Shown here one piece after another: positions 14,291 to 52,945 of a DNA stretch of 64,000 nt (the stretch's first letter is position 1; each line of letters opens with the position of its first letter). Where the stretch lies: contig NC_092670.1 of NCBI RefSeq assembly GCF_964355755.1, positions 34,955,795-35,019,794 on the forward strand. Reading direction: 5' to 3'. The notes beneath the pieces were generated by a model. The model was not told the origin of the DNA. It searched no databases and was given only the letters and a program-made list of their open reading frames with translations. Position numbers and translations under genes: made by a program. Source of the stretch: Antedon mediterranea. Its lineage: Eukaryota > Echinodermata > Crinoidea > Comatulida > Antedonidae.

Positions 14291-14446
14291 ACTTCGACTT
14301 TAAGGGTTTCAATGTGATAACATGCTACATTAGGCGGCGTAGAAAATAGTGATTTCTGCCATTGGAAATTGAAATAGCGGTTATAAGAACAGTTCCATTC
14401 AACTATGAATTGGAAAAAATACAATTTAAAAAAGAAAACCGCTTAC

Positions 14447-17400: not shown

Positions 17401-19506
17401 AAAAGTCTCAGAAGTCTGTGTTTTATTTATACGATTTATTATTTTTCAGACCCGCTATTTTGTACAAATATTTAAAGTATTTTGATATAAAACTAAAGTA
17501 ATGATTAATCGTGTGAGGATGACATTTTGAACTAAAAACTTCGTCGTTGACGTTGGTGCCTTACACATCGACCGTCCCGATGTGTCCCCGCAGTTCTTCG
17601 CACTCCAGAGAACATTTTATTCAGCTGTTCAACCCCCGGGTGTTTTGAACTCCGAAGTTGTTTGTTCTTAACTTTCACACCAAAACACCGGGGCATCAAC
17701 TTTGCTTTTAGTGTAAAAGGGGTATATCAAACGCTCAGAAACTGAGCGAAAAACTTGACGACATTACGTTCTCAGTTAGAAAGTCTAATCTTTGATATAG
17801 TTAAAAAAAATACAGAATTCGTCGGCAGAGGGCGCGCTATTTAACATTTCGACAGAGCCATATATATATGGCTCTGCATTTCGAAGATAAAGACAGCCCG
17901 AGATTTTAATCAATTTATGTGAAATTATCAATGAATAAATCGATTTTATTGAAAAGCAATAGGTATGGCTATAGGAGTGTGGGCATTATAAAAACAAACA
18001 CAGAAAAGCAAAGAAAAGACTGCTAAATCGGTTACATTTACTTACATATCATCGACATTATAATGTGAGGAAAATCCGAGTGATGAAACAATGACAATGA
18101 AAACTGGAACTCCATAGCACAGTGCGAAGTAATAACGAAGTCGATTGTATCGTGTTGAGACTGCAGAGGGAGAGACCATAAACAGCAGGTACACGGCCTC
18201 ACCGCACATCCAGGCGAACGTATTGAGAGAAGTTAGATGAAGACATACGCTGATAAATCTGCAGAGTATCTGGCAACCAGCAATTAAGGGCAAGTTAAAC
18301 ATAGTTTGTAACCAATTATCTTCACTAATGAGAGCCTAATAACGTTTGAGCTTCGAACACAATGACGCTAGATGTGATTACATAATGTAATACAATAATG
18401 AAATTGTAATACAGGTTTTATTAGGAAAGAAAGAACTCTTGGTACAGAGTTTTAGATTTAGAACTGTCAGATGGATGCTTATTAACGATGTATTATCCCA
18501 ATGATTTCTTTGTCACTTTGACCAAAAATTGGACGGGAAAAAATAATTTAGGCCTACTTGAAAAAACTGTAATTTAAAGCACATAATAGTCAAATTACCG
18601 TTTATTTTGTTCTTTTATATTACTGAAAACATTATTTTTTTCGGGTTTTTTTCTACGAAAGTGATTACATTTGTTAAAACTACAAAATGGCTTATTCAAA
18701 GTCTGATTTCGTTATATTAATGTTATCTATCAAAGTCACGGGACTTACTTTGTGTGCTGTCTTGTCAATTCCAAATAAAAACAAGCTCTGCATCAGAATC
18801 ATGTTAATTACCAAGTTCTTGTGAATTGAATTTCGAAGCGAGACCCAGAGTTTTCTAAAATAATAGAAATAAATCGTTCATCACAATGAGCATGTAGTAT
18901 AGAGGATTTATACTATTTCCGATAACGTTGGACATCTGAGGCAGAAATCATAAAATTCCTAATAACTTATTTCCAAACCCTTTAAAAAATAATCTCTGTC
19001 AACAAGCAAAAGACAACATCAAAGATGTTGAACCCAGGGATACATGTCCACAACTTTTAGGACTTTAACAAGTCTATAACTCTACCATTGAGAGTCAACG
19101 CAGAACACGTTGACAACGGTTATGCCCATGCTTATATAGCGTCCCCTATGATTATTTCCTCTGCTTCCAGAAAAAAAATCACATCCTGGTATTTAAACAA
19201 AATTAGCAAACTAACCAGTTTGGTCAATCAATCGGCTTCTTAGAGTAATGTGTGGTTATGAAATAAATGATCAGTTTTTGATATTTGCAAAACAATTATT
19301 TAGTTTTTTATGGACAGTAAAGTTCAAAGTGAATGTAGTTTGAATCTGTTGGATCAGGGAAGCGTAAGGTTGTTTGGTGTAAAAACAAATTGTACTTACG
19401 GGAATGAACAGTATATCAACAGACAGACAACCAAAGTAACAAGAGAAATAGATACACATACGGTCGAAATATAATCCAGTCCTTTGTCATCAATAGTCTC
19501 CTTTTC
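14447..19506 (-). CDS. Gene A seven-transmembrane exons
   Basis: Six exons encode TM1 (19506-19400: STVCVSISLVTLVVCLLIY), TM2 (18854-18749: IHKNLVINMILMQ), TM3-TM4 (18269-18046: CRFISVCLHLTSLNTFAWMC, then GEAVYLLFMV), the ECL2/TM5 start (15237-15171: CWLSRKTGMIWTFVLP), the TM5 end and third inner loop (15006-14903: YRRSRRVVGKSM) and TM6-TM7 (14615-14447: MLLPLMGTTWLIGP and GCQGLFIFLIYCVFDNE). The TM3 Cys and the ECL2 Cys-Trp pair expected for the conserved disulfide are both present, as is the WMxxEAV signature of adhesion receptors. Every junction keeps phase. Gene B has the same exons, three of them with identical lengths (67, 104, 169) and TM2 also identical (106). Confidence 0.92.
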
Positions 19507-22500
19507 CTAAAAACAAAACGCGAATGGTGTAATTACATTGCACAATATTTAAAATGAACTTGGTAAATTAAAAAAAAATAGTTGAAAGGTCACATAAGAA
19601 AGTCGTTGAGTAGTTGACAGAAAGTAACTTTAGGCCTAAATGTATATCGGATGTCCAAACTCTGTACCCACGTCCCAACTAGTGTCGCTCTCTCCGCCAT
19701 CTTTAATATAATCTATTATTGGTTATCATTAATCTGTTATAATATTATTTTATTTAAATCATAATCTATTCCTTAGATTATATTTTAGCACCATTTTGGA
19801 ACGAAGACAGTGACAACTATTTGATGGTCAATATGTAGTCATTTGTAGAATACGTAACATTCAAAAAACCTTATCAAGATGACAATACAGTATTTCACCT
19901 TAAAAGCCATTAGTTTGAAAAAACAACTTACACCTTGCGTAGTTAGTTTCATAAACACACTAAAACTGGTTAAATGGTCAGAATGGCAAGTCACTTGATC
20001 CTTAAACAGGTTAGCGGTGGTAGTCATGCCCTCATCACTCCAAATCCTGTAATAATTGTATATAAAAAGAAGAACCAATTACAGTATTGTTATCACTACC
20101 AGTGAAATATATCCTTTATGTATTTTATACATTTAATAGAAATGTTGAACTTTATAGCTTAGCATTTACTTCTTACATTTGTATGTCATCAAAAAAGAGG
20201 CAAATTGGTTCCATAGATATTTGTTTCCTTGTCTTATCTTTGCCTTTCCAGTTTCTAGTTGTCTATAACAATAATCATTGTAAAACATTAATACGCATGC
20301 ACAACAATGAACTAGTATGGAAGTATGGAACGTCGAGTATATCGTAACTTTAGTTAGTTAAATGAGATAGTTTTAAGGAACACTTTTGGCAACCACACCA
20401 ATCTTTGTAATTTGGCAGCCATGAATTGGTAAACTATGAATGTTAACCATTAATATACAAACTTACCGATATATTGTGTATAGTGAATTCCAATGTTGTG
20501 TCATGGATGTAAGAGAAATTGGTTGCATCATAAACACTGCATGAAAATACTTTAAATGGAATAAATTTTACCTTACCGTTGTCACCATCCCTAAAGGGAA
20601 AACAAATCTAATATTAAAAATATGCTTTTCTCCGTTCTAAGGATGATAGTAATTAACTAATAGTATATTAATTTTAGCATTTATTAACTATCTTCACTAT
20701 TTTGGATTTGTCAATGTTTGTATCGGCAGACCATATCGACGGTGTGTAAGCCTGCAGTCGTCTACCACAAATCATCCAAACGTTGTACTCGACTGAAGAT
20801 GCTTTTTAACAATTATCTTAGTAATAACAAACAACAAACAACAATCAATAACAACAACAAACAAGCAAACAAAGTCAACATCTAAAATCTTAAATTAAAA
20901 CCCCTAAGACGATAATAATAATTGTCTGAAAGTATACAAATACATACGACCCTGTGATGACCGTTTTCTTGATACGGTCATTAGCGTATTCGGTATTGTT
21001 CATGTAGGTTGCAATTATTAGAACATCTGAAAAAATATAACAAGAAGTATGTGTATAACAAATTTCCAACGGTAAAAAAAACTAACAAAACCATGACTTT
21101 TGGGAGAGAGAGACAGACAGAGAGAAGTTATACTCATAAAACAAGTCCCCATACACTCAGTATGCTGCAGTATGGATGAAAGCCAGTAAAATTGACCCTA
21201 AGCAACTTGGCATGGCATCAATTCGCACCCAAGTTGGAACAGCAAGGATCAAGGCAATAAACCTTGGTTACATATACAACTTATTATTTAGATACCAATA
21301 CATACTTTCTACGTCGGATTGTAAGCCTATCTGGACTTCAAAGTTCACTCGACTGCTATCAAGGTCCAGAGTATTCTTTACAGTTCGAGTTTTGTTGTTC
21401 ATATTATCAATAATTGCCAAACCAACTACAAAATATAAAATAGTAAACATTTAGAAAAGGGATTGCAGCAGCGCTCTCAAATATCCCTCTCTCTCTCTCT
21501 CTCTCTGAATTTTTCAAAGTGAGGAAAGAGAACTGAGATCGCGCAAACACATTCTCTTGTACATTCCGTGCAGAAAATAGCTATCGCTGGGGATATAATA
21601 CTTTCAGTACTGTTGATCTGAATATATGCTAAAATCATCAAAATCTCGGGGCAGTTTTAAGTTACTTCTAAAACTCACTTGCTCATGGCGCAATGATCGT
21701 TTAAATTACGATATAAACATGGAACAATTGACTGATTGAATCGCTGTTTATTTATTGTATTTATTTTATTTAAGCAATATTTTATTCGAAAAGTGGTCAC
21801 TAGCTAATACCAACAGAAAAAAGAAGAGCAAAAACGTTGAAGTAAAACAGTCGAAAATAAATGTTAGTGCTTTCGGGCAAAACTAAATCTTCATCACTGA
21901 TCCCCACTTGAGGTGATGGTGTATCCCCATACTCCCAGTTTGGGTGCTACACTGGGCTGGGTCATTGTTGAACCCACGATGTATTGTCTTTTGATCGCGA
22001 TCCCACGCGATCCCACGCGCTCCCACGAAGGCCATTGTTTTTTGATCGCGATTCTAGGAGAGGGATTGTTCTTTGATCGCATTCCCACGCGCTCCCACCA
22101 GCTCCCACGAAAGGCATTATATTTTGATTGTGATTCTACGAAACGGATTGTTTCTTGATTGTAGCTTGGTATTTTTGTCTTTTTGTTCTCTTCCTTTTGG
22201 TTTCCATTCTTTCTCTTTATTGTCGAGCGCATAAAGACATCGTTTATTTGCGCTATATAAATCTATCTACTAATATCAGTGTAAGTGAGGATTATAAATA
22301 TATAATGGTTAATGTATTTCAAATGTCCCAAAATTGTTTTTTTTTCTATTCTTAATACCAAAAAAAAAAATAATAATCATAATTTTTACCGAAGCTTTTC
22401 TCGTCATATAATTTCTTTCCGGTTGTTTTTATTTCTGTCACGTCTGATAAAACACCATTTTCAAAATTATTTACTTTGTTAAGAAACATACGGGTTCCCT

Positions 22501-25500
22501 GAAATAAATCAATTGCAATGAATGTGCCATGTTTAGTAAGAAATTTAGGGTGTAATTAGGATAGACATACTACAGTACATATACAGCAATAAACGCGCAG
22601 ATAAGTGAGAAATGGTTTCTTGCAGAGGAATACAGAAACGCTCTATAATAATGATTGGTCTTTCTAGTCTAGTAAGCTACCGTAAAACCTCGAAAAGAAG
22701 CTCATGGGCTTCTTAAGGACTCTTATGTGGGATTTGTTTTTAGATTGACTTCTTCTCATGTTTGTATGGTATTCAATCCAGATTAGATTATAATATATAC
22801 AAATAATTTTGTTCGAGGTTTTAGACGGTATTTAATCCCGCATTTAACATATTAAATTATAAAAAATCTGTAATCATTATAATCATTTGTTGACTTTGAA
22901 ATGCCAAACTTACTCGTGTTACCATTGAATGAGCAGTGCTTGCATAGTCTGGTATAGGTACGTCAGTTGCGGATTCCACATTTTTATCCACGTTAGTGTA
23001 CTCGTTATACCTACAACACTCGTCATATCCTATTAAAAATAAACATTATTGAATTCATTATTATTAATTAGTTCAACAATAATTGTTGTTCTTTATCGAG
23101 TCTTCCCAAATGTGGTGTACGCATCCGGAAAATGCAGCCGATGTAAAACCTATACATGTAGTTTGGCTTTGTTAAAGCACGTGTTTCTGCTCTTTGACTA
23201 CTATACACCAGCCAGGTGTATCTACCAACAATGAGGATTATCGGTTTTACTAACCTCTTACTGTAACCGTAAACATACATGTATTGTTGTTTTTGGAGGC
23301 GTCGGTAGCCGTAAATGTAAAATTGTGTATACCAATATTCAGATCAGTTGGAAAAACCGTATTGGGATCGGGCGAAATGGTTGGAGTATCCCAAGACGTG
23401 TCTACAGCAGAAATGTTGAATGATGCTGTCGAAAAACTGCTATTGGTAAACACAATTTTGTCAGGAGGACAATATATTGTAGGAGCTTCGGTATCTAGAA
23501 AATAGACAAAACATACAAAACACTTTCATTTCGAAAAAAAAAATTAAAATCAAAACCGTATAAGCGTATACGTGCACATGTTGTCAATGAAATGAGCACA
23601 ATCATGTTCCTGGAAATCAATTCACGGATACTCGACTAAAAACATGTACAATACCAACTTACTACTAACCTGACAACAATACTGAAACTGGAATTTGACA
23701 GACATTTGTGTTTCCCGACGAGTCTGTAGCGTAAAAGATGAAGGTGGTGTCTTTAGTTACAAGAGTTGGAAATGTATTGTAAGGATCAGGAATGATTCTC
23801 GGTACATCTCCTGAGTTATCATATGCCTTGATTGACATTGAAAAATCCACTAGAGGAACAGCCGGGATATACCCTAGAATAGCGTGTCCTGAAGGGCATA
23901 TCAACAACGGTGGTTCTATGTCTGTTAATAGAAGAATTGTACAAAAGTAAAGTGTTTAAATAATAAAATACGATTGAGAATAGACGTCGTTTGGTAATCT
24001 CACATAAGTTGGGTTCAGATACACACGCTACCAAACATGTCAAGAATGACAATATAAAACACCGTCTGAAATTGAGGCTTTTTTGCCGCCATGGAAGGTC
24101 CAAGTTTACTAACACAAAACAAAATTTTTTCAACAGGTACCGGTAAATTATTTATTTTATATAACTACACATTATGTACTCACCTATAACTGTTACTTTA
24201 AATGTACACGATATCTCGTTGGAGTTATCATCAGATGCGTAAAACTTAAAGAATGTTTGTCCAATTGTAAGATAAGCTGGAAAATACGATGTGGGATCAG
24301 GTCGGATTTCAGACAGTGAAGTTGTAATGTTACGTGAATAATCAACCAGAGCCGTATTCACTCCCTTGTCCGTGGGCAGGGTGACGTTGGCTGGACACGT
24401 GAGCATTAAGGATTGGTCCACATCTATGGATGATAATTAAAAGAATTTATGGAAGTTATCATCTGAATGCTTGTATACTATACTATACTAATGTAATGTA
24501 ATGTAATGATATAGATTCATAATTGAAAAATCAACCTTTAGTATCACAATCCGATTGAGTTCAACAATTTGCCCCAGAAAAGTTCAGATATTTTAATGTT
24601 CATTAGGCATAAAAATTAGTTCCTCAAAGAAAACAGTTGATTTGAACTATGATCTTTCTCATCGTAAAACTATTAGATATTGACAGTTTTAAGAAAAGAT
24701 TCCACAGGGGCAATCCGTCATTGTAGCCCCCCCCCCCCTCCTCAGATAGATATAATTAATTAATCCCTCCAAAATGTAACTGGACAAACTTAGGACCAAT
24801 GGTTAAGCCCAGAGATGATGTAATGACATATACTAATGAACAAGCCGATATACCTCAAGTTTCAGAAGAGGCCAGACACACCTAACAGACACTTCTTGGA
24901 GCACACACCTTACCGATACTTCTTCAGAAGCACATACAGCCACACCTCACTTACAGCATCACTTATACTTTGTTCCTGTTTCGTTATTACCCTATTATCC
25001 TGTATCATTCCTGAATTTGTATTGTATTGTGTATTATACAGTATTACTGAATAAACAACTGTGATATCCAATCAACCAAGTGAGTGGAGTCTTTAATACA
25101 GTAAACCTTACACATTATTACACTAAATAACTAAACACGTGTTTTTATAGAAAAGGCAACATCCCCGTTTGTTCATGATTCTCGGTGCTGCATCTCCACA
25201 TACTACAATTATATGCCCAGTATCATAGGAATATGTTTGGTAATACAGCATCTCATTTGTATTACATGTGATGCCTGTATTATGTAAGGTTAGGTTAAGG
25301 GTTATGTTATGGTATGAAACTAGGAGATTTATGAAACACATATGATATTGTATTACCAAATATTCCTATGATACCGGAAAAATCTAGATACAGTACAGAT
25401 AACCATGTGCCATTTGACAGTATAAAAAGAAATGTTTCCAAAATATTTTTGTAATAATCCAGTTATCTGGTCTAATCCAGTTAATTAAAGACCACCTTTG

Positions 25501-28500
25501 AAACAGAAATATACGGTGATTGTTTCCTTAATTAGAATCAGAATCATTATATAACAATGCTATATACATGGCTGCAGTCGAGTGCTCAAATTTTAGTTAG
25601 TGTTTACCGACCGACCAACCGACCGACCATCCGAACAACCGACCGACATAGTGAGCCGTAGAGTCGCGTTGCACGCGACTAATTATTATTATTGTTGCTG
25701 CGTGTTGTTGTTTATTGATTAATTAAACTAGTCTCGACGCTTATACTCTTGTAACGCAAATAACATTGACTGATGATAATGGAAAAAAACTTAAGTTTTA
25801 TCAGGGAATTGAGAATTAGGCCTACACACTTCCATGTTTTCATCTCACCTGAAGCTTCTTCTAATTTAGAACCTATTTATAATCGCTATAACATCAGAAT
25901 CTGCAATTAATGAGGCTAAATCATTAACGACACCCAAATTTCTAGGGAATACATAGTTTAAACCTAAATCCACATATCAACGTATATACGATTTCAGACG
26001 TAAAGTGATACACTTCGATCATTATAAGAAAGGACATCTTATGAAGAATTTATTAGAAAGTTATTAAAAAAAAACAACAGACAGGCTTACATAAAGACAA
26101 ATAAACAGACCAATAGTGCATTGTGTGGTGATTAATTGACATGATAGTGGGGTACACTGTTTTGCTACTTTGAAGAACTATACTTATACCGTAACAATTT
26201 CCTCCAGGGCTGCCAATATCACATAATTCAAACCTAGAGATCGGATCTGTTGTATAACACCAGGCAGTTGGTTCGTTATCGGGGTTACGGCAGTGGTTGT
26301 GACTGCCTAAACCCGTATCAGGATAATTGCTCTGAGTTCTTGTATGCCTATGGGGTGACTGTGATGTCCAAAGTTGGCACGTTTTCCCAGTTACGGTGAT
26401 ATTGACTGAGCCTCGATAATCAACAGCATCTGTCATTCTATAGCATTCTGGAAATACGGCCACACAGTATTGCTTGTAATCTTGCTCGCATACATTTGTC
26501 TTGTATATTGTTTTTGAACAATTAAATGAATGAATGAGTTAGCCTACCTGTCTCGTCACATTGCGCTCCCGTGAACCCTTTAAAACATTCGCACTTAAGG
26601 CCATAATAGACATCCGGTAGCGATATGATTATACACACACCGTTATCACCACAATAAGCACTTGGACAAGACGAGTTACGATCTTTAATAAAATAAGTAC
26701 GGGAAAATAAGTACAGTATTAGAGTGGTAAAGGTAAATCCAAGGCTGAAGTGAGAAAGTTTAGATGGACATCAAGAAAATTGATAATGTATAATATGAAA
26801 TTATGTCAGTCTTTCCACCTCAGCTACACCGTGATTAGTGCTAAGATAAGGAACATTGATTTAACAATATTTTTGATTTTTACTTCGAAAAGGATCCCCT
26901 TTCTTAAAAAAGACATTGCTGCTCTTGAATCTGTCCAAAGGTGGGTCACTCGTACATGCTTCCCAAGATCAGCCAGTGTCCCTTACCCTGAACGTTTGAA
27001 ACGCCTTAATCTGATGTCCATTAACAATTGTATCATGTATTTATGTATTAATTGTGTTACCAAATGTATGTACAAATTATATGATGTTAAAGTTTTATAA
27101 CCTTAAGTTGCGCAATAATGTTATAGCCCGGACTGATTCATTTCATAACTCTGTCTTTAATTTTTTTGTTAGACATTTCAGAGATCTGCTTGCGGATCTC
27201 TGCGACCAACTATTAATTAATATAAACTGTTTAAGCATAGCCTTAAGAAATATCTTACCAATCTGATTTTTTAACTGAAAATGTATATGTGTATTTTAAA
27301 GATATTTTTTTTAATTCTATCTATTTAAATTAATATTATTTTATATAAATCAATTGCAGAATTTTGTAGTTTAATCTCAATTTTATTGGAACCCATATAT
27401 TATTCATTTTATGTAAGTATTTCGATGTGGATTTTTATCTAGAACTTTTTGGTTATCCGGCCTCATTGATTTACTTTTGTATGGTTTTTTGTACTGTACT
27501 GTATATTGGCCAATTAAATGATATGATATTCTTATTAGAAATGTGGGGGTGCGAATAAAAGCGAATGTAGCCAACTAAAGGATCAGATGTAAAATACATT
27601 TCTTAATTCACGGGACTTACAAACAAACTGACTATTTGTGAAATACAGTTCTATAGGATTAACAGCCAATCACACAACAACAGAAAGAAATATACAGAAA
27701 GCATATGACTAATTAAGAATATTGATCTTCATCAACAATACATTGGTACAAAATTATCTGTAAATACTCGGTAGTCACATTATTAGTTTGGAAGATAGAT
27801 TACTTTTGTTTTCAGCATTTGGGGACAAACAAAGCAAATACAAAAAACTTACAATATAGCTCACTTGTGACTATGGCAATACAACCATTACGAACGTTAT
27901 GGTATCTTTTAGTCTAAATAATGAATCCGTATGTATATATTGGGAGAGATTGATGACAGCTTTTAAAAAAAGCAATATCCAGGAAACAGTATACAAACCA
28001 GTTTTAACTGGTATTATTATACATTATTAATAACCAATTTCATACGTACAGTAGGACGAATGATTTGTATAATGAAGACAACCTTTATTTGTTTTATTAT
28101 TTTTTATTTTATTTATTTGTTGTTATGGAAAAATGTTTTGGAAATTTATAGTTATGATGCCCTCTCAAAACTTGATTTACTGTACCCGACATTAGGCCTA
28201 GAATAAAATAATATATTGTATTCAAAATGCCTAAATTATATAAAAAGATTTATAGTTACCACTTTCACAGATGTAACCTACTAAGCTAAAATCACTGCTG
28301 AACGGTTGATCTACGACAATATCAAAGAAAGATCCAGTTGTTGGAATTGTTAAACATCCAGCACGTTCATCATCTGATACATTTGGCTCAGGAGACGAAA
28401 AATTAACCAAACCTACATCCATTTTTTCCCCTGTTTCCCACATCCAGTTTTCAGGATCGTGTCGACCGGATCCCGGTGGGCGCGATAATCCAACTGCGTA

Positions 28501-29277
28501 TACGCGAGAGGGACACTTTGAACCAATTGAATTGATAAGTACATCATGTATTTCAGTAACTGTTTCAAAGGATGCTAGATAACCACCGGATAACTCGCAA
28601 AGACTCTTTACATTCTGCCATGTTTTTGTTGTCGAAATTTCTGTTGCAAGATACCGTGATGAGCCAATTTCAATTTCGCAGCCTAAAACACAACAGTAAA
28701 TTTAACCAGTTTAACAAACATTACAGAAAAAAAGAGTAGTTCTTTGGTATTAATTTGTATGTACACCCTCATAGTATGTTATATTGCATTATTAATGCAT
28801 AGTAGGTTATTCCATCCCAGCATAAACCCATGCACGTCTATTTACAAATTTAGATAATCAAATGAAATATGCAAAATGTGGATCATCACTTTTTTAAAAA
28901 TTTTTTTAAATTTTGTATTTATTAAACCTTATTTAGTGAGGGTTACCCTAAACAGCATATGCTGAAATTATAAAAAAAACATATATGAAAAAAAAAATAA
29001 GAACGGATGAACTATGAACTAAAAAAAATATAATATATATTTTAAATATTTCATTATATAAAATATATATATATAAATACAAAAATATAGCCTACAAAAC
29101 ATTGGAGGTTTTTCTTTTAGAATTAATTTTTTTTTTAGAGCAGACTTACAATTGTTTACCGACACTTACTTCACAAGGAAACAAATCAAATTTACAAAAG
29201 TACATTTAAACTGAAGATCACAACTCACCATAAGATCCCACAACTAGCAACATTATTAGGAAGGTAAATTGCAACAT
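14447..29277 (-). CDS. Adhesion GPCR gene A (CTLD-EGF-kringle-HYR-GAIN-7TM)
   Basis: Twenty exons join in phase for about 1,052 codons: 29277-29229, 28682-28260, 26682-26548, 26480-26190, 24423-24184, 23921-23670, 23494-23255, 23029-22914, 22498-22390, 21425-21306, 21026-20948, 20590-20467, 20262-20177, 20046-19932, 19506-19400, 18854-18749, 18269-18046, 15237-15171, 15006-14903, 14615-14447. The order is signal peptide, C-type lectin, EGF, kringle, three HYR domains, GAIN with GPS, then a family-B-type seven-helix domain. It should be a cell-surface receptor with a modular ligand-binding head, self-cleaved at the GPS. All head modules are phase 1. The last listed exon ends with donor GTAAGC, so a cytoplasmic tail exon is missing. 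The start is the ATG of the signal exon. Alternative upstream first exons may exist (31,786; 35,905). Confidence 0.85.
15375..15795 (+). repeat. C-rich tandem satellite, left arm (CCCCCGGACAACTA)
   Basis: About 25 degenerate units of roughly 16-20 bases (GGACAACTACCCCCTTA type). The reverse complement of the same satellite lies at 16,999-17,250. It sits in the large TM4-TM5 intron of gene A. The ORF over its start is a repeat artefact. Confidence 0.85.
16423..16945. mobile_element. Mutator-like foldback MITE with 9-bp target duplication
   Basis: The ends GGGTGTTTCGAAACTAGAGA (16,423) and its complement (ending at 16,945) are flanked by a perfect direct duplication, GTTAAAAAC (16,414-16,422 and 16,946-16,954). 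A 9-bp duplication is the hallmark of Mutator-like transposons. The inside is about 20 tandem units of roughly 21-22 bases (CGAAAAGGGAGACCCAAATATA type, split here as CGAAAAGGGAGACC and CAAATATA), with the complementary unit only near the right end. No transposase. It lies in an intron of gene A. Confidence 0.85.
16999..17250 (-). repeat. G-rich tandem satellite, right arm
   Basis: Units such as GGGGGTAGTTGTCCTAAG are the complement of the left arm at 15,375-15,795. The two arms flank the Mutator-like foldback and about 600 bases of other sequence. Together they may form an older foldback element, but termini and a target duplication are not clear. Confidence 0.8.
17853..17876. repeat. Perfect 24-bp palindrome
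   Basis: CAGAGCCATATA followed immediately by its exact complement TATATGGCTCTG, inside an intron of gene A. It is likely a hairpin relic of a small element. Confidence 0.7.
19932..23029 (-). CDS. Gene A GAIN domain and GPS exons
   Basis: Seven exons (23029-22914, 22498-22390, 21425-21306, 21026-20948, 20590-20467, 20262-20177, 20046-19932) form the autoproteolysis-inducing domain. The second-last carries ICLFFDD. The last carries IWSDEG and the cleavage box HLTSFSVFM, so cleavage between Leu and Thr is expected. Of the four usual GPS cysteines, the one after WSxxG (here Met) and the one just before the cleavage box (here CHSDH, not CxC) are absent, so one of the two usual disulfides is predicted lost. 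The 20262 exon start was chosen because ATAG|ACA is the only acceptor that keeps phase 0 from the preceding exon. Confidence 0.85.
21985..22165 (+). repeat. Imperfect repeats with TTTGATCGCGAT and CCCACGCGCTCCCACGA
   Basis: Three or four diverged units of about 55-60 bases. Downstream GCGCTATATAAAT at about 22,250 resembles the 3' end of a dispersed element found in many invertebrate genomes. Probably a mobile-element fragment in an intron of gene A. Confidence 0.5.
23255..24423 (-). CDS. Gene A three HYR domain exons
   Basis: Exons 24423-24184 (80 codons), 23921-23670 (84) and 23494-23255 (80) each encode one hyalin-repeat (HYR) module. Each begins with Asp, has an early Cys after Pro-rich sequence (LTCPAN, LICPSG, IYCPPD), a central DPxxxFP motif, and ends with F-A/T-DxSxNxxxC followed by a V-rich strand (CTFKVTVIG, CQIPVSVL, CMFTVTVRG). 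HYR domains are immunoglobulin-like adhesion modules common in echinoderm proteins. Each exon is phase 1 at both ends, so exons can be duplicated or skipped without frame damage. Confidence 0.88.
25560..25690 (+). repeat. Dispersed repeat with (CCGA)n core, copy 1
   Basis: GCTGCAGTCGAGTGCTC, then GTGTTTACCGACCGACC, then CATAGTGAGCCGTAGAGTCGCG. The same order occurs at 30,680-30,800 and, 5'-shortened, at 33,385-33,450. The conserved flanks around a variable CCGA microsatellite mark an element family, not random microsatellites. Confidence 0.65.
26190..26480 (-). CDS. Gene A kringle domain exon
   Basis: The 97-codon exon carries the kringle signature: DYRGSVNITVTGKTCQLW, then PHRHT, NYPDTGLGSHNHCRNPD, AWCYT and FELCDI. 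Kringles are triple-disulfide binding modules for proteins or small ligands, best known from clotting proteases and Wnt co-receptors such as ROR. Here no protease follows; instead HYR and GAIN domains follow. The acceptor at 26,480 was chosen because only it gives phase 1 with the kringle frame open. Both ends are phase 1. Confidence 0.88.
26548..26682 (-). CDS. Gene A EGF-like domain exon
   Basis: This 45-codon phase-1 exon has six cysteines in EGF spacing: CPSAYCGDNGVC, then CECFKGFTGAQC. No calcium-binding consensus (DxxEC) precedes the first Cys. It links the lectin exon to the kringle exon in gene A. Confidence 0.85.
26880..27540 (+). mobile_element. 5'-truncated CR1-like LINE fragment
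   Basis: The frame at 26,880-27,100 encodes PFLKKDIAALESVQRWVTR and YPERLKRLNLMS, the conserved stretch just after the reverse transcriptase palm in CR1/L2-type LINEs. The frame at 27,080-27,266 continues with the expected downstream segment, so there is a frameshift near 27,090. A 3' UTR follows to about 27,540. It is dead and inserted in sense orientation opposite to gene A, in the intron before the EGF exon. Confidence 0.7.
28260..28682 (-). CDS. C-type lectin-like domain exon 1 of gene A
   Basis: A 141-codon phase-1 exon holds a whole CTLD. Landmarks are CEIEIGS at the start, TWQNVKSLCELSGGYLASF, AVGLSRP in place of the usual WIGL, NWMWETGE, AGC, and GYICESG at the end. The usual EPN/QPD and WND calcium-site motifs are absent, so calcium-dependent sugar binding is doubtful. 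It joins in phase to the signal exon at 29,277 and to the EGF exon at 26,682. Confidence 0.85.
29229..29277 (-). CDS. Signal-peptide exon SP1 (start of gene A)
   Basis: ATG at 29,277-29,275 opens MLQFTFLIMLLVVGSYG, a short hydrophobic leader ending in small residues, followed by donor GTGAGT. It ends in phase 1 and joins GGC|TGC of the lectin exon. The exon and about 100 bases upstream are duplicated at 35,318-35,470, where the ATG has become ACG. Confidence 0.8.
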
Positions 29278-29779
29278 CTTGATTGTCTATAAGCCTATGC
29301 AACACTAAGCGCGCCCAGAACCTTGACGAAATACTTCAAGAGATGCAGAGAGCAGCACGTAGAGGGCGTGCTATTTGTAAAGGTTTTAGAGTTTCCTTCA
29401 GCATAATATGAAATATTAAAAATATTTTCAGGCCAATATGAATATTCAGGACTGTATGTGTGGGGAAGAATACATGATCCCAGAAACATACAGGATCTTA
29501 AGTCGGGTCTGCCTCGGATACAAAAAGAAGGGATAAAGCAGCGGAACAGGACAAATCATCACTAATTTTACAAAAAAAAATGTGTGATATGCCCAAATAT
29601 GGTAGTGATATTCCCAAATATAGTTGTGATATGCCCAAATATTTAGTAGTGACATCATCGTCAATTTTTTCACGTCAAATAAAGTTTGAGTGTTCAGAAG
29701 AGTGTCCCCTTGAAATAGTGGCTTTGGACGTGTTGTGTTAATTTACAATTTGTTTGCACCTGCACCACATACGTTGTTG

Positions 29780-29972
29780 TTGCTCCCATTAAAGCGTGGT
29801 TCCCACTAGCGACGCAACATAAGGACGTAACGCAACGCAAGTGAATTGACCAATCACAAGCGATGGCTTATTCGCTTGTGATTGCTAACTGTCTATAACT
29901 TCGCTTGTCATTGGTTAAAACGCTTGCGTTGCGTTTACGTCATTGCGTTACGTTTTAGTGTGAACCAAGTTT
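29780..29972. mobile_element. MITE with AACGCAACGCAAG and CCAAT-bearing arms
   Basis: Left arm GGTTCCCACTAGCGACGCAA, then GACGTAACGCAACGCAAG and TTGACCAATCACAAGCG. The right arm mirrors this and ends in GTGTGAACCAAG. It lies between SP1 and the second CTLD and is the same family as 12,672-12,778. Confidence 0.75.
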
Positions 29973-30674
29973 AAGCAACGCGTAATGATTGTCAACTGTT
30001 GTTACTGCAACAGGAAATTTGATCAAATAAATTGTGAAAATAGTTGTTGTGAGGTAGAACTCTTCACCTTTACGTGTTCTGAATTCAAAACGCACAACGT
30101 GTGATCAAAAAACGTAAATGAGCCACCAAACCAAACCGGGCTAAGTGTAAACGGAGCTTTATACTTACATAACCCCGCGCAGAAAAAAAATAATCAAAAG
30201 ATAGAATATAATTTTTAAAAATAACCGCCTGATTAAGTCAGTCCATCACTATTTGTACCAATCATAATTACTGTCTGTAAAGACCTCATTCAACACACTA
30301 TAATTACAAACATGTTGTCTTTCTTTTCTTTTTCAAAAAGATTAATGATATGGTAACATTTTACATTGCGATACAAACAATTGATACAGGAGATTGTACT
30401 ACTGCTAATTAACTAAAATAGTCGACTGTTATTGTATGTAGTTATGGAAATAAACACACACACACATCATTACACACTTAGTACTTACAAATAACAAATA
30501 ATATGTTTTTAGAAATGAATATTTTTAGAAATTAATAAGTCAGTTAGTCTTTATAGAAAAAACAAAAATGTATTCAATTTCTTTTTTTTTTAATTCTAAC
30601 ACATTTCACACTTTTCTCAATGCACAATACTTGCGCTAATCAAATCATGAGTTATAGGCCTAATTAGTAATGCA

Positions 30675-30800
30675 AAACATGGCATATACATTGCTGCAGT
30701 CGCGTGCTCAAATTTGAGTGTTTACCGACCGACCGACCGACCAACCGACCGACCTACCAACCGACCGACCGCCATAGTGAGCTGTAGAGTCGCGACTAAA
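30675..30800 (+). repeat. Dispersed repeat with (CCGA)n core, copy 2
   Basis: Same order of blocks as at 25,560: GCTGCAGTCGCGTGCTC, a run of CCGA units, then AGTGAGCTGTAGAGTCGCG. Confidence 0.65.
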
Positions 30801-30918
30801 AATACATTAACAATGGGTAGTCGCTAAAATACCCCAACTTACAGTTTTTAAATGCGTTTCAACTAGCGTTACAAAATCAGTTAAAACGATTTTTTGACAT
30901 AAAACAAATCTCACTCAC

Positions 30919-31335
30919 CATAATATTCACATATATACCCTTTCGTATGCCCTCTGTTTAATTTTGAATTAGCTTTAACATCATAAATGAAACCATTTTC
31001 TAAATCAATTTTACACCCTGCATACGTGTCACTGTTTAAACTAGGTTCGGACATTGCAAATGGGGTAATTGTATAGTTAAAGCCTTCTCCAGATTCCCAT
31101 ATCCAGTTCACAATTACGTACGGCTGCAAGCCTGTTTGTCGCGATAGTCCAATTGCATATGTACCTCTTCTACAGTTTTTCTTAATAAATTCAAGTACGG
31201 AATCTACTTCGTCAGATGTTGTAAGACTTGCTAGCTTACCGCCAGACGATGCACAGCTACGTCTTGCTTCGAACCAAGTTAAGTCTACTTCAAGGATTAC
31301 TTTGTATGATGATGAATTGACCGCCAATTCGCAGT
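30919..31335 (-). CDS. C-type lectin-like domain exon 2
   Basis: A 139-codon phase-1 exon with acceptor TTTCAG at 31,336 and donor GTGAGT. Landmarks are DCELAVNSSSYKV, LTWFEARRSCASSGGKLASL, TYAIGLSRQTG, NWIWESGEGF, AGC and GYICEYYG. It is a paralogue of the exon at 28,260 and likewise lacks EPN/QPD and WND. It joins in phase to signal exon SP2 at 31,729 and could join in phase to the gene A lectin or EGF exons. No terminal exon with a stop was found before SP1, which favours splicing into gene A. Confidence 0.75.
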
Positions 31336-31728
31336 CTGAAACAGTCATGAGATTTGTTATAGAGCTACGTATGCGCGTATGGTCTTTGACATAAGCATTT
31401 CATTCTTGTTGACATTAGGCCTATAACATTCTACCACTGAGGTTTTATACCACAATACGGAAATCACAGAACCGTTTGTATAAAAATACACAAAGATGCC
31501 TCGCGGCATATAAATGTATGTTGGGCCTTGCTTTGAACTATTCCATTTTTTTAGGGAGTTCTGCACACAAGGGTTTGTAGTAGCCTATATACGAACGGAA
31601 TGTTACCGGTATATAAAAATATGGTTAATGTGTAACGACCGACCAATACGTCTGATCAAGGAAGAGTGAAATTAGGCCTACAGTGCAATGTCACTCTTCC
31701 GTGGTATAATAAAAAAAAGCAAACTCAC

Positions 31729-31786
31729 TTGATTCAACAGTGACAACTTGCAACACTAAAACAAAGTTGAAAAGTATGTTCTTCAT
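31729..31786 (-). CDS. Signal-peptide exon SP2
   Basis: ATG at 31,786 opens MKNILFNFVLVLQVVTVES, a good signal peptide, with donor GTGAGT in phase 1. The upstream 900 bases are duplicated upstream of SP4 (35,905). This suggests a duplicated promoter region. It could be the first exon of an alternative gene A transcript or of a separate lectin gene. Confidence 0.72.
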
Positions 31787-32549
31787 TTCTGACGTATACC
31801 AAAAAAATGATCATATACTGTAGATAGTTACAGCAGACGACGAGGCACGTAAAATTATGCATTTCAGAATACTACTGCGCATGTGTAGGCCTGTTTTATA
31901 TGACAATTTCTTTTAGGACTAATGAATTGTCAGTCGCATGATTACAACAATAGTATAATCACCTAATCTATCTGTGTTGGCGTTCTTTACTTCTCTAATT
32001 AACTTAACTGGACATCTCTTTTTTATTGAAAAATGCCGTTTCTATTTTATTTTAACAGGACTATAAAAACGACTTACTGCTCGGTCGCTTATACGAGGAT
32101 AGAGTGAATCAAACACAGGGGTTGCTGGAATCAGTTGTGCGCAGCAACTGCTAATCATGCTGACATGTTAATTGTTCATGTTGCTCACATAAAACTTTAT
32201 TTAAAATTGTCGTGACTCGAGTCAAAATTCTACAATAACAACAATCAGCTAAATTCATCCGTACAAATAGCATACATACACTGGTCTCCCTGGTTCGCAA
32301 TGAACACGAGATATTCAGCAGCTGGTTAGTATAATAAGGATAGACGACTATACAGTAAGACCAAAGGCGGGGATGTTCAGCCATGTCCAGGGCGCGATAT
32401 TTTTTTTCGTACATGAGTTGGGGATACCTCATGAAACGTCACAAAATAAACATGAATCATTCATTAATCATATCCATAAAATGTGACGTAAAAATAATGA
32501 TCTAACTACAATTCACTATTGCAAGCGTTTTCCGTGAGCCGTCTGCTTA

Positions 32550-32612
32550 GTCGAATGGATTAGACTACAGACTTTGTATGTCGATGTATAGAGTTCGATT
32601 CCCATGAGCAAC
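32550..32612 (+). repeat. tRNA-like sequence (A and B boxes), copy 1
   Basis: TTAGTCGAATGGATTAGA resembles a pol III A box and GAGTTCGATTCCC a B box, but the cloverleaf ends do not pair. The second copy is at 36,718-36,781. This is probably the head of an old SINE carried along in the segmental duplication. Confidence 0.45.
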
Positions 32613-32697
32613 TTCTTTAACTTTATAGCAAGGGGGATATTATTTTGAGGATTAGGTTAAGTTATATTTAGGAAGTAGGTCGGCTATCTTTCACATA

Positions 32698-32728
32698 AGG
32701 AGTGATGAGCCAGTTCTAATTTCGCAGC
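32698..32728 (-). pseudogene. Truncated lectin exon relic at a duplication breakpoint
   Basis: The first 30 bases of the lectin exon (acceptor TTTTTAG then GCTGCGAAATTAGAACTGGC) match the start of the exon at 28,682. The intron on its other side (32,735-32,920) matches 28,690-28,855. After about 32,698 the sequence switches to the region that elsewhere lies near 36,860. This is the join of a tandem duplication. Confidence 0.7.
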
Positions 32729-33075
32729 CTAAAAAAATAATAATTAAATTTGACCAGTTCAAAAATATTACAGAAAGAAAATAGGTATTTTGGTATTAAT
32801 TACACCCCCTCCTTTCTCAGTCACATTGAGAAGTATCTTGCATTATTAATGTATAATAGGCAATTTGGTTTGGCATACCAATCTAGCATAAAATGCATGG
32901 CCTATTATACATTTACAAATTAGCAGGGAAAATGAATTTGACTCAACTCAACTCAAATTCATACATTTTATGATGTAAATTATACACATCTACTATTTGT
33001 TGCAAATAACATAATAATGTAAAGTACTGCATAAATTAGTGTAGTTTGAAATTGAAAAATATCACTAAAATATAC

Positions 33076-33868
33076 CTGAACAACCAAGAACCTCAAATCT
33101 TAAACAAATGGCATGAAGCCAAGCTGTTGGGTGAATACGAATGTAACGAGCAATCACTGGTTTTGGAAACAGATTAGTAACTTGAGAATTACGATTTGCA
33201 TTTCCAACAAATTCCTGAACATAGAAAAACAAGTACAAAAGTATAGTTTAAAGTTTAATTAAAATACACAATTTTAATGAAAACAACTGCTTCTAAATCA
33301 TGCTTAATTTGAAGGCGATCATACAAATTATAATGCACTTATGTTTTTGGTGATTAGCTTAGGTATTATCTTATCTAAAGTGATACCGGACCGACAGACG
33401 GACCGACCGACCGACATAGTGAACTATAGAGTCGCGTCCACGCGACTAAAAATAGCCACTAGCCTAATTCCATTCTAAATTACATATATTTGAATAATTT
33501 AGAGACATGAAGTCGTTAAAATAAATAAGAGAAACTCACCATAGTAGTATCATCGGCTTCAATAATGTATTTAAAGTTGTTACCATCGATACTGTACAAC
33601 ACTTCAAAAGTCGTAACCCATTGGGAATATGTCCAATTACGTCCTTGTGTAATCACTCCAGTCACCCATTTTAGAGCACCAATATCAGCTTGTATCCATT
33701 GGTTTTGATCATATGATCTTGCACCCCAAGCACCAATATTACCCTTCTTTGGAGTTGTATTAAGTCTACCATATTCAGGCCCATGTCGTGCATCATATTG
33801 AGTCGATGCTGTAAGTGCAATTGTTCCTTCTTCTACTCCCAAAGGATCCGTACAGAACTTTGTTTTAA
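33076..33868 (-). CDS. Discoidin (F5/8 type C) domain 2, two exons
   Basis: Exons 33868-33540 (phase 1 to 0) and 33214-33076 (phase 0 to 1). The first holds ASTQYDARHGPEYGRLN, GAWGARSYDQNQWIQADIG and VTGVITQGR. The second holds QVTNLFPKPVIARYIRIHP and ICLRFEVLGC. The fold is the coagulation factor 5/8 C-terminal (discoidin) lectin, which binds phospholipid, carbohydrate or collagen through loop tips. The acceptor at 33,868 was chosen because it keeps phase 1 with the preceding domain. It follows domain 1 directly. Confidence 0.88.
33385..33450 (+). repeat. Dispersed repeat with (CCGA)n core, copy 3
   Basis: GACCGACCGACCGACATAGT, then GAACTATAGAGTCGCG. This is the 3' part of the family at 25,560 and 30,675. 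Confidence 0.55.
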
Positions 33869-34437
33869 CTAATTGTACCATAGTAAAATAGAAATGCATG
33901 TTTCTGATACACAGAGACTTAAGAATAAGCATACAGCATCATTTTCTGGCATATAAAAATTTGATTGGAAAAATGAACATTCTAAACGTGTAACCTGCAT
34001 GTTATTGTGGATATGTATATTTAAAGTTAGACGCAGATTTTATTTTTCTAATATCACATGGATGCTCAGGAAAAAGCCCATGGCAGGTGTAAAATACCAT
34101 CGAGAGCAGCCTATGTAAATGCAATGTGGACGCACGAATGTTCACTCTTCCAAAAGAAAACACAAACAGATGATTAAAAATATCTTATTAAATGATTGTT
34201 GGAGACGTGAGAGCAGCGTGGTCCAAGAGGATTGTACCACGCCCTCTCAGTTCTCAAAATAGAATCGTGTTTAAACTTTGTTTTCACACAATTCCTTAAA
34301 CATTAATAATAGCAATATTCACAAACTGTGAAGGTCTCCAACATAAAAGAGTTTAATATTCACATAAACATTTGCCTAAGTGATTTACCTGTATTTATGT
34401 ATTGATAGTCATTATGTGTTACAATTGGTTTATTTAC

Positions 34438-35004
34438 CTGGGCAGCCAAGAATTTCAAACCTCATACAAATGTGGTTGTTCCAAGTCATTGGATTGATTC
34501 TAATAAATCGTGCATGTATTTCAAATGGAAATAGATTGGTAACTTGTGTATCTGTATCTGTATTGCCAACAAACACCTACAAATAAACAACAATATCCAA
34601 TGCAAGAAAATGCTACTAATCATACAAATCATCTTAAGCGCATTCTTCATTGTTAAACTACTTACTTACCTTCGGTGTTCCAACAGTGATCACAATTATC
34701 TGCCAGTTAGAACTGTCCATGCCATACAAGACTTCATATGACTTAACCCATTGACTATAATTGTTACGTCCTTGGGTTATTACACCAGTCACCACTTTCA
34801 CTTCATTAAGATCAACTTGAATCCACTGATTAAGATCATTGGTTTTGGCTGCCCATGCACCAATTCCATCATTAGTAGGTTCAATATTCAATCTCCCACG
34901 ATGAGCACCGGAATGTGCATCGTATTCACTTGAAGCACGGATGTTTTCCGATGGAATTTCTGATGATTCTATGCCAAGTTTTGAACCAGTGCAATTAGAC
35001 AATG
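34438..35004 (-). CDS. Discoidin (F5/8 type C) domain 1, two exons
   Basis: Exons 35004-34670 and 34576-34438 encode one whole discoidin domain: IRASSEYDAHSGAHRGRLN, GAWAAKTNDLNQWIQVDL, VVTGVITQGRNNYSQWV, then QVTNLFPFEIHARFIRINP and ICMRFEILGCPG. The N-terminal Cys (LSNCTG) and the last Cys form the usual disulfide pair. The intron position and phases equal those of domain 2, so the two arose by duplication. It joins in phase to signal exon SP4 (35,848) or to the SP3 relic. Confidence 0.88.
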
Positions 35005-35317
35005 CTGAAAAGATCAATGGGAATATGCAACAAAAAAAGAGAAACACTTAGTTACACCATGCGTGCATAATTCCAGATCTCTTGTCAATGTCCATACATT
35101 TTTTTCTGGAATAATATTTTGAGAAGCTCTTATACGTTTCCTAGGTATTGCTCTATTTTGATATAGCATTTATACTGTACTTCTATTAACAACAATTTAG
35201 ATAATCAAATCAAATTTGAAAAATGTGGATTATGCACTTACTTTACAGGGGGACACATACACACAACCAAAATCATAAATTTCTAAAAGTACATTTAAAC
35301 TGAAAGTCAAAACTTAC

Positions 35318-35366
35318 CATAAGATCCCACAACTAACAACATTATTAGGAAGGTAAATTGCAACGT
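35318..35366 (-). pseudogene. Signal-peptide exon SP3 with lost start codon
   Basis: A near copy of SP1: the same 49-base length and donor position. The codon aligned with the SP1 ATG reads ACG (35,366-35,364). The next in-frame ATG is codon 9, which would leave too short a leader. The rest (QFTFLIMLLVVGSYG) is intact. Either the first exon is dead, it is used as an internal exon, or the neighbouring SP4 has replaced it. Confidence 0.7.
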
Positions 35367-35847
35367 CTTGATTTTCTATAAGCCTATGCAACACTAAGCG
35401 CGCCCAGAAACTTTAAGAAATACTTCAAGAGATGCAAAGATCAGCACGTAGACGGTGTGCTATTTTTAAACGTTTTGAAAATCAGAACCGTTTGTACAAA
35501 AATACACGAAGATGCCCCGCGTCATAGAAATGTGTGTTAGGCCTTGTTTTAAGGAGTTCTGCACACAAGGGTTTGTAGTAATCTATACATGAAATGAATT
35601 TTACCGGTAATAAAATAATATAATAATATCGGCTCAGCTACAGTGATTAAGTTCACTTAGGTTTACCCTGGTCTCCTCAATTTCAGGTTTTTTTTGTTAT
35701 GTATATACTGAAATAGACCGAATAAATAATGAAATGAAATGGTTAATGTAAGAAGTAACGACTGACCAATACGTCTGATCAAGAAAGAGTGAAATCACAG
35801 TGTAATGTCACTCTTCCGTGGTATAAAACAAAACCATACAAACTCAC

Positions 35848-35905
35848 TTGATTCAACATTGACAATTTGCAACACTATAATGAAGTTGAAAAGTATGTTC
35901 TTCAT
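35848..35905 (-). CDS. Signal-peptide exon SP4
   Basis: ATG at 35,905 opens MKNILFNFIIVLQIVNVES with donor GTGAGT in phase 1, a paralogue of SP2. The next in-phase acceptor with a clear domain is the discoidin exon at 35,004. It may head a secreted double-discoidin protein or an alternative gene A transcript. Confidence 0.72.
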
Positions 35906-36869
35906 TTCTGACGTATACCAAAAACATGATACAGATAGTTACAGCAGACTGAATGTTAAATGTAAAATGATGCATTGCAGAATACTACTGCGCACGTGTA
36001 GGACTATTTTATGATATTATTCTTATAAGTAGGTTTATTTCTTTTAATGAATTGTCAGTCGCATGATTACAATATACATAATTACCACTCTATCTGTGTT
36101 AGCATTCTTCAATTCTCCAGTTAACATTTCTTCTTTGTTATAAAATGCCGTTTCTTTACACATAGTAGATAATAGGTAAAATGACGTATAATTTCCAATT
36201 TTTTCTATAGAATAAAAAGAACTGGATTTTTAAAACGACTTACTGCACTCGTTCGCGGGCTGGTACGAGGTAGAGTGAGTCGAACACAAGGGTCGCTGAA
36301 ATATGAAATCAGTTGTGCGCAGCAACTGCTAATCATGTAGACATGTTAATTGTTCAAATTATTCACATTCAAATTGTCGTGACTCGAGTCACAATTCTAC
36401 AAAACAACGACAATCTGCTAAATTCATCCGTACTTTATTTACAATACCTCTGGCCTGTTACAAATAGCATACAACAGTGGTCTCCCTGGCTCGCAATGAA
36501 CACGAGTTATTCAGCAGCTGGTTAGTATAATAATAGAACGACTATAAGACCAAAGGTTCATCCATGTCCAGGGCGCGATATTTTTTTTTCGTACATGAGT
36601 TGGGGATACGAAACGTCACAAAACAAACATGAATAATTCATTAGTCATATCCGTAAGATGTGACGTAAGAATAATGATCTAACTACAATTCACTAATGCA
36701 AACGCTTTCCGTCTGTGCAGTCGAATGGATTGGACTACTACTTTACATGTCGAGGTATGGGTTCGATTCCCATGAGCAACTTTTTATTACTTTATAGTAA
36801 GAAAGATATTATTTAGAGTGTTAGGTTGAGTTACATTTAGGAAGTAGGTTGGCTATCTTTCACATAAAG

Positions 36870-37300
36870 AGTTCACAACTTATGTACGGAAAAAAATCGC
36901 GTCCAAACGGAGATAATTAAAACCAGCCGTGCTATATCTTACGACAAATGTGAACGTTGAACCCACATCAAATATTCACAGCATTCTATATTAAAATGTA
37001 TAAAGATCTAAGTCGATCAGGAGGATTTCATCTACGAATGTAAACAAAAATGTTTATATTTACACATGCCGTTCATGCAATAGAGAATGGATGATATTGG
37101 AAATGACGACGATGTTCATGATACATTCTAATCCACTGAAAATTATCCAAGTCCTGCATTTAACTATGAATGTTGGTATGCGTTTTTATCTTAGCACGGC
37201 GAGCTCAGTTATTGCCTTATTATAACTATGGCTGTTACAATCCTAAATGTTTACACTTTGTAATTTGCAGCGCATTCCAAAACAAGCGGTTTTGGCACTT
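36870..37300. other. No gene seen
   Basis: AT-rich intergenic sequence between the gene A upstream modules and the 3' side of gene B. Confidence 0.4.
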
Positions 37301-52300: not shown

Positions 52301-52945
52301 CGATATCATTTAAACCTATCCAAAAATCATAGTTTGAATTTTCATTATGAAGAAATGTGTTTTCCAAATGGTTCTTTACCACAACCAGATCGGCTCCAAG
52401 ACTGATACAATTTTCTCGGGCATCAGTCCATGTTTTTTTCGACAGCATGTATTTATAACAACTATTGACGTACGGAGTCCAGTTGTCATCACAATGTGCA
52501 ATTCCATTTACTGGAATACAAATATTTATTTCTTTAATTTAACTTTTAAAAAAATACACAACACTAAACTGCAAGCCTTATAAAACTAGTTTTTCTTTGT
52601 ATGGGTTACATAACCGCAATAAGTGTCCTTGGGATTACTTTATAATGTGAAATAATATAAAACTATTAAAATATGTTTTATTTTAAAATTGAAGTATTTA
52701 TATGTCTTTTTTTAAACAAATGTTTGTGAAATTACTAGCTGTTATGGCGATTTGACCAATTAACTAATAACTCAATTTTACAATAGAAAGAGATATTTAT
52801 AAAGAGACATTTTCCATTAGAAGAATGTTGATATGCAGAAATTTACTTTACATAATTACAATAAAGGAAATTACTTACCAGCTTTTAATATTGGCAAAAT
52901 TAATAAGAATTGCCACAAAAGTGTCTGCTGCATGCGTGGCTGCAT
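49345..52945 (-). CDS. Array C: signal peptide-CTLD-HYR-CTLD-linker exons
   Basis: Exons 52945-52879 (SP6, MQPRMQQTLLWQFLLILPIL), 52510-52244 and 51910-51791 (a CTLD split over two exons), 51512-51243 (HYR), 50586-50317 and 49865-49752 (second CTLD), 49410-49345 (Ser/Thr-rich linker). All begin and end in phase 1 and join in frame. The first CTLD has SCYKYM, ARENCISLGADLVVV, FWIGLND, EPS in the sugar-site position, DWND and MCYICEK, so calcium-dependent binding is plausible. The last exon has no stop; the next phase-1 acceptor with a domain is the gene B lectin exon at 48,456. It may thus be a long N-terminal version of gene B or a separate gene whose end I could not find. Confidence 0.72.

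Follow-up and report, generated by a model that had tools for sequence, protein, structure and literature searches.

Signal-peptide exons and lectin-type modules stacked upstream of an adhesion-GPCR core in Antedon mediterranea

Alternative promoters are established for the adhesion GPCRs of mouse and human. Mouse adhesion-GPCR genes have multiple promoters, some of them within introns; the internal promoters are reported to give mainly partial products and not exchanged recognition ends, and soluble N-terminal fragments have been predicted from truncated transcripts (PMC6667449). Several starts per gene alter the N-terminal fragment in ADGRF5 and ADGRD1 (PMC6667449) and, according to a passage of PMC13197933 that cites PMC11711277 for an alternative promoter, in ADGRB1. 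In amphioxus, discoidin, C-type lectin and kringle domains are on record as parts of adhesion GPCRs, and the portion of that account considered here describes these receptors gene by gene, with no mention of stacked alternative sets (PMC2246102). In the clustered protocadherins, each variable exon encodes an entire ectodomain plus TM and is spliced directly to shared constant exons (PMC4978886).

Here we analyse a window of 64,000 nucleotides from the crinoid Antedon mediterranea (contig C1:34,955,795-35,019,794), searched against a genome of 354 Mb in 18 contigs. Two adhesion-GPCR genes, U and D, lie in tandem in the window, both on the minus strand. Gene D carries the same kinds of ectodomain module on an adhesion-GPCR core as the amphioxus receptors considered (PMC2246102) and, like the clustered protocadherins, combines a shared 3′ part with several upstream recognition sets; the shared part in gene D includes GAIN and 7TM, unlike that of the protocadherins. 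Unlike the starts of mammalian adhesion GPCRs, those of gene D are duplicated signal exons with different recognition modules, produced by a tandem duplication of the 5′ end only. We found no report of stacked adhesion-GPCR starts in echinoderms or other invertebrates in the open-access literature, and the combination of duplicated signal exons, different lectin modules, one core, two adjacent genes and a readable duplication path seems to be new.

Receptor core and upstream exons of gene D

Gene D has its 7TM region at 14.4-18.3 kb, a GPS at 20 kb and an ectodomain that reaches 36 kb (minus strand). GPS and 7tm_2 score above the Pfam cut-off in both genes, which, from exons located one by one, identifies both as adhesion GPCRs. 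An earlier note, made from the letters of this DNA, had placed an EGF-kringle-HYR-GAIN-7TM core downstream of all sets, and Pfam matches of gene D to EGF, kringle, HYR, GPS and 7tm_2 bear this out; the exon ends that it gave at 33,076, 31,335, 30,919, 28,682, 28,260 and 26,682 are correct.

26,548-26,682, minus strand: EGF exon, which opens the common core (Pfam)
26,190-26,460, minus strand: kringle exon, 5′ edge approximate (Pfam)
23,259-24,424, minus strand: three HYR exons, at 24,424-24,188, 23,922-23,680 and 23,495-23,259 (Pfam)
19,956-20,042, minus strand: GPS with the cleavage-type sequence HL/T (Pfam)
14,429-18,335, minus strand: 7TM (secretin/adhesion) exons (Pfam and paralogue match)

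An intron of the 7TM region contains G- or C-rich tandem repeats (15,380-17,220), with TTAGGACAACTACCCC and GGGGGTAGTTGTCC units and opposite strand bias on either side.

We scanned the minus strand from 13 to 38.4 kb for an ATG followed by a hydrophobic core and a phase-1 donor, using approximate metazoan frequencies as donor weights. Three intact signal exons were found and no others. With a fourth exon, in which the ATG has become ACG, they make up the four (35,905; 31,786; 29,277; and 35,366 without its ATG) that the earlier note had described.

35,848-35,905, minus strand: SP-A1, MKNILFNFIIVLQIVNVES, phase-1 donor CAA/gtgagt (copy of SP-A2)
35,318-35,366, minus strand: SP-B1, ATG changed to ACG, donor intact (three-way alignment with 29,277 and C1:35,030.9k)
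31,729-31,786, minus strand: SP-A2, MKNILFNFVLVLQVVTVES (signal-exon scan)
29,229-29,277, minus strand: SP-B2, MLQFTFLIMLLVVGSY, donor ATG/gtgagt (signal-exon scan and alignment)

The count is modest evidence and not decisive by itself, because first-order Markov sequence yields a mean of 0.93 matches and a maximum of 5. What sets these exons beyond chance is that they fall into two families of near-identical pairs (A, 35,905 and 31,786; B, 35,366 and 29,277) and stand ahead of lectin exons. Family A has only these two copies in a genome-wide search. No plausible acceptor was found for the SP-B exons. There is a possible one for the SP-A exons, an acceptor-like tttttttggtatacgtcag tract immediately before the ATG, and SP-A exons may therefore not be first exons. 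Together with a donor-like GCAGTAAGT farther upstream (approximately 36,241 and 32,078, minus strand), which is conserved in both copies of the duplication described below, this tract points to a possible 5′ untranslated exon upstream of SP-A.

The signal exons are followed by C-type lectin (CTLD) or discoidin (DS) exons, as had been claimed, with matches to the Pfam families Lectin_C and F5/8 type C.

34,670-35,004, minus strand: DSa exon 1, discoidin, phase 1 in and phase 0 out (Pfam)
34,438-34,576, minus strand: DSa exon 2, discoidin, phase 0 in and phase 1 out (Pfam)
33,540-33,868, minus strand: DSb exon 1, discoidin (Pfam)
33,076-33,214, minus strand: DSb exon 2, discoidin, donor CAG/gtatat (Pfam)
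30,919-31,335, minus strand: CTLD2, single-exon C-type lectin domain, phase 1-1, donor ATG/gtgagt (Pfam)
28,260-28,682, minus strand: CTLD1, single-exon C-type lectin domain, EPN motif, phase 1-1 (Pfam)

The discoidin domains match F5/8 type C (PF00754) at 2e-30 and 2e-28, above the cut-off, and their best solved relatives are factor VIII and neuropilin-1. For Lectin_C (PF00059), CTLD2 scores 27.0 bits and CTLD1 22.6 bits, exactly at the 22.6-bit cut-off; the two domains are clear relatives of each other (E 1.3e-17), CTLD1 having an EPN motif and CTLD2 an EPS in its place. All domain borders are in phase 1, in agreement with the earlier reading, and the intron within each discoidin domain is in phase 0. 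The donor of CTLD2 has the same place and phase as the donors of homologous CTLD exons in an array on C6.

The neighbouring gene and relatives elsewhere

Gene U has its 7TM and GPS at approximately 39-43.7 kb, and its ectodomain exons start at 48 kb and reach at least 62 kb (minus strand). Two signal exons lie inside it, and they are 67% identical, flanks included.

52,879-52,945, minus strand: internal signal exon MQPRMQQTLLWQFLLILPILKA, before the CTLD at 52,472 (signal-exon scan)
48,564-48,630, minus strand: internal signal exon MHKQQVILWHFLLLLAIVKAES, before the CTLD-like exon at 48.4 kb (signal-exon scan)

The CTLD-like exon at 48.4 kb matches our in-house CTLD profile and no Pfam family. 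Judged by this exon order, gene U is stacked in the same way as gene D, and all six strong signal-exon matches in or just upstream of the two genes stand before lectin or discoidin exons. The gene U ectodomain (window 62,200-48,000, minus strand) is built of HYR and CTLD exons around the two internal signal exons. A CTLD-HYR-CTLD block is duplicated within it (58.8-54.8 kb versus 52.5-49.8 kb, some exons 86-87% alike), and one HYR exon (window 60,980-59,260, minus strand) is split by an insertion of approximately 1.5 kb and appears broken.

Outside the window, the paralogues compared have at most one set each. One paralogue, at C1:33.17 Mb, is a plain SP-CTLD-HYR5-GAIN-7TM receptor; other single-set receptors carry DS-DS (C6:31.21 Mb), DS (C11:3.07 Mb) or CTLD (C1:25.18 Mb and C10:24.63 Mb). 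A close core paralogue at C1:39.28 Mb (62% in the 7TM query) has one signal-exon match, approximately 20 HYR domains and no lectin; the HYR exons of this adhesion GPCR (C1:39,281,000-39,293,000) are arranged in repeating blocks. On C7 (2,285,068-2,320,980), 11 near-identical GPS-bearing copies follow one another in tandem, mostly spaced by approximately 2.9-5.7 kb.

The DSa-DSb module also occurs inside long genes on C10 (discoidin array, sushi, trypsin) and C2 (discoidin array, VWD). The module is the same, homologous introns included, at 82-89% DNA identity, whereas on C10 and C2 it is internal to seemingly long secreted-type proteins and lacks SP-B. Downstream of the C10 array, at 24.49 Mb, a trypsin-type exon contains approximately nine in-frame, near-identical copies of a short segment (FDVNAAFDADIALIKLNQSVQ).

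Duplication and constraint at the 5′ end

Positions 36,872-35,739 align with 32,703-31,621 at 76% identity over gaps, in blocks of 85-91%, as expected of a tandem duplication, and positions 35,476-35,270 align with 29,387-29,183 at 90%. According to these alignments the copies span 36.9-32.7 kb and 32.7 kb onward and comprise the 5′ end only; the sets are thus not independent. The end of copy 1 falls within the CTLD1 exon and leaves a stub; a junction in this place means that the duplicated segment was the 5′ end alone, and that from then on the upstream set had no core of its own. Both copies start with the same dispersed repeat, which in copy 1 includes a B-box-like GGTTCGATTCC (36,760-36,770, plus strand).

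36,566-36,900, minus strand: dispersed repeat at the start of copy 1 (alignment with copy 2)
32,691-32,728, minus strand: CTLD1-like exon stub, intact acceptor, GCEIRTGSSLLM and then in-frame TGA (duplication junction at approximately 32,703)
32,382-32,696, minus strand: dispersed repeat, approximately 315 nt, at the start of copy 2 (many genomic places, 82-86% identity)

Beyond the end of the window, upstream of gene U (C1:35,028-35,031 kb), SP-B, DSa and DSb occur a third time. Because they stand there in this order, copy 1 of gene D keeps the older arrangement. In copy 2, the passage from the SP-A side to the SP-B stretch is interrupted (31,458-29,387) by a 2-kb insert containing CTLD2, and the DSa/DSb stretch is missing between 28,831 and 28,755. 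The duplication began at the dispersed repeat and stopped within the CTLD1 exon; copy 2 subsequently lost its discoidin pair and has CTLD2 between its two signal exons. The interval that separates gene U from the third discoidin copy contains retroelement polyprotein fragments, including at 62.5-64 kb of the window.

DSa and DSb of gene D were compared with the third copy over 930 exon bases and the flanking introns. Divergence is 6.7% in the exons versus 12.2% in the introns; the exons contain 2 indels (12 and 3 bases, both multiples of 3) versus 20.3 expected from the introns (P 3e-7), and neither copy has a stop codon in DSa or DSb. The deficit of indels shows that the discoidin reading frame is protected. 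Amino-acid constraint is weak, given a dN/dS of approximately 0.7 for DSa (dN 0.028, dS 0.042) and 1.3 for DSb (dN 0.114, dS 0.088), and the sequence within the frame is free, or pushed, to change. DSb replacements are not significantly clustered in the three ligand loops (11 versus 7.2 expected, P 0.059), which were placed by alignment to solved relatives and by what we take to be the spikes of factor VIII C2. DNA identity between the two copies is 97% for DSa and 90% for DSb; DSa may have undergone local gene conversion.

It could be that one start only is in use, at 29,277 or 31,786, and that everything else is a decaying by-product of the 5′ duplication. The lost ATG at 35,366, the truncated CTLD stub and a discoidin dN/dS near 1 would fit such decay. 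However, two discoidin domains have remained free of stops and frameshifts while the introns took many indels, both SP-A exons are intact and gene U is stacked likewise; we regard the single start as a fairly unlikely explanation.

Stop signals and routes into the core

The earlier note had found no terminal exon with a stop for the upstream sets. For the discoidin set this does not hold: the stub at 32,728-32,691 reads GCEIRTGSSLLM and then a stop in the frame of that set, and it is the only candidate for a terminal exon with a stop among the sets. Its acceptor is nearly identical to that of CTLD1, the stop comes 12 codons in, and AATAAA occurs downstream at 32,201, 32,051 and 32,027. These features and the conserved discoidin frame would suit a separate gene for a small secreted two-discoidin lectin, composed of SP-A1, DSa, DSb and the stub, with the 31,786 and 29,277 sets alone in the receptor. 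However, the supposed 3′UTR coincides with the promoter-side part of copy 2, itself a product of the duplication and opening with the dispersed repeat; AATAAA is common here by chance (counts, including those after CTLD1, are near chance level, except for its absence after CTLD2); and the same DSa-DSb module is internal to larger genes on C10 and C2. A separate discoidin gene has, in our estimate, a rather small chance of being correct. The earlier note's own alternative, a cluster of small secreted lectins beside a receptor, may apply to the discoidin set only.

If all upstream sets were small secreted lectin genes, the receptor would have its own first exon elsewhere. Each set does run into an in-frame stop a few codons beyond its donor when the intron is read through. 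We rejected these stops as terminal exons because identical ones trail discoidin exons that are internal to the C10 and C2 arrays. Moreover, homologous CTLD exons have kept the same donors, and no signal exon belonging to the core turned up in a relaxed scan of 28.26-18 kb, the single match, at 19,129, being a poor one. A wholly secreted origin of the sets is therefore very improbable.

The earlier note had further proposed that alternative starts feed one receptor in the manner of clustered protocadherins. The first half of this is consistent with several first exons, compatible phases and one core; at least two signal exons can splice in phase into the single core of gene D. The second half fails. 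Phases would permit each start, with its own domain, to be spliced straight to EGF past the intervening sets, but every intervening domain exon has an acceptor, the sets consist of several exons, and the upstream-most start would have to skip the stub as well, whereas protocadherin variable exons join the constant exons directly (PMC4978886). Exchange of this kind strikes us as scarcely credible.

With acceptors on the domain exons, a transcript begun upstream would as a rule take in all sets farther down, so that the sets would be nested and not exchanged. We favour this reading, and on sequence grounds we put it at about an even chance that gene D is a single adhesion-GPCR gene whose alternative first exons are nested. 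It is favoured by a core for which the scans found no signal exon, by CTLD donors that match their C6 homologues in place and phase, by the plain paralogue and the one-set receptors, by the stacking of gene U and the consistent position of signal exons before lectin or discoidin exons, by a duplication junction that leaves the upstream set coreless, by the protected discoidin frames, by a stretch of 1.6 kb downstream of CTLD2 that is free of AATAAA and by the documented multiple promoters of mouse adhesion GPCRs (PMC6667449). Against it stand the lost ATG of SP-B1, the stub stop after DSb, the weak amino-acid constraint on the discoidins, the acceptor-like tract before SP-A and the mainly partial products of mouse internal promoters.

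With signal exons taken as first exons, and lectin and discoidin exons as symmetric phase-1 cassettes with acceptors, the start at 29,277 would give SP-CTLD1-core and the start at 31,786 would give SP-CTLD2-CTLD1-EGF-kringle-HYR3-GAIN-7TM. The upstream set would start at 35,905 (35,366 having no ATG) and carries two discoidin domains. It would yield the longest receptor, with the discoidin pair added, when the stub is skipped, and a secreted two-discoidin protein when the stub is included; this predicted product is comparable to the soluble N-terminal fragments of mouse adhesion GPCRs. The sequence shows the exon anatomy, the phases, the order of the duplication and the protected discoidin frames; that every signal exon has an active promoter, that the sets are spliced into the core and that they serve ligand choice, we infer.

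More speculatively, both tandem genes may form a regulated cassette system in which promoter choice would equip one core with alternative ends for glycan recognition and also yield a soluble decoy; we think this doubtful. Signal-exon-plus-lectin cassettes copied only at the 5′ end, and a phase-1 discoidin module shared with an array on another chromosome, would on the same tentative reading make up an expandable invertebrate recognition receptor. If transcripts confirm the nested starts, adhesion GPCRs would have been caught in the act of gaining new ligand ends through 5′-end duplication and the subsequent loss and gain of domains, while the core stayed as it was; promoter choice would then be tied to ligand specificity within one receptor.
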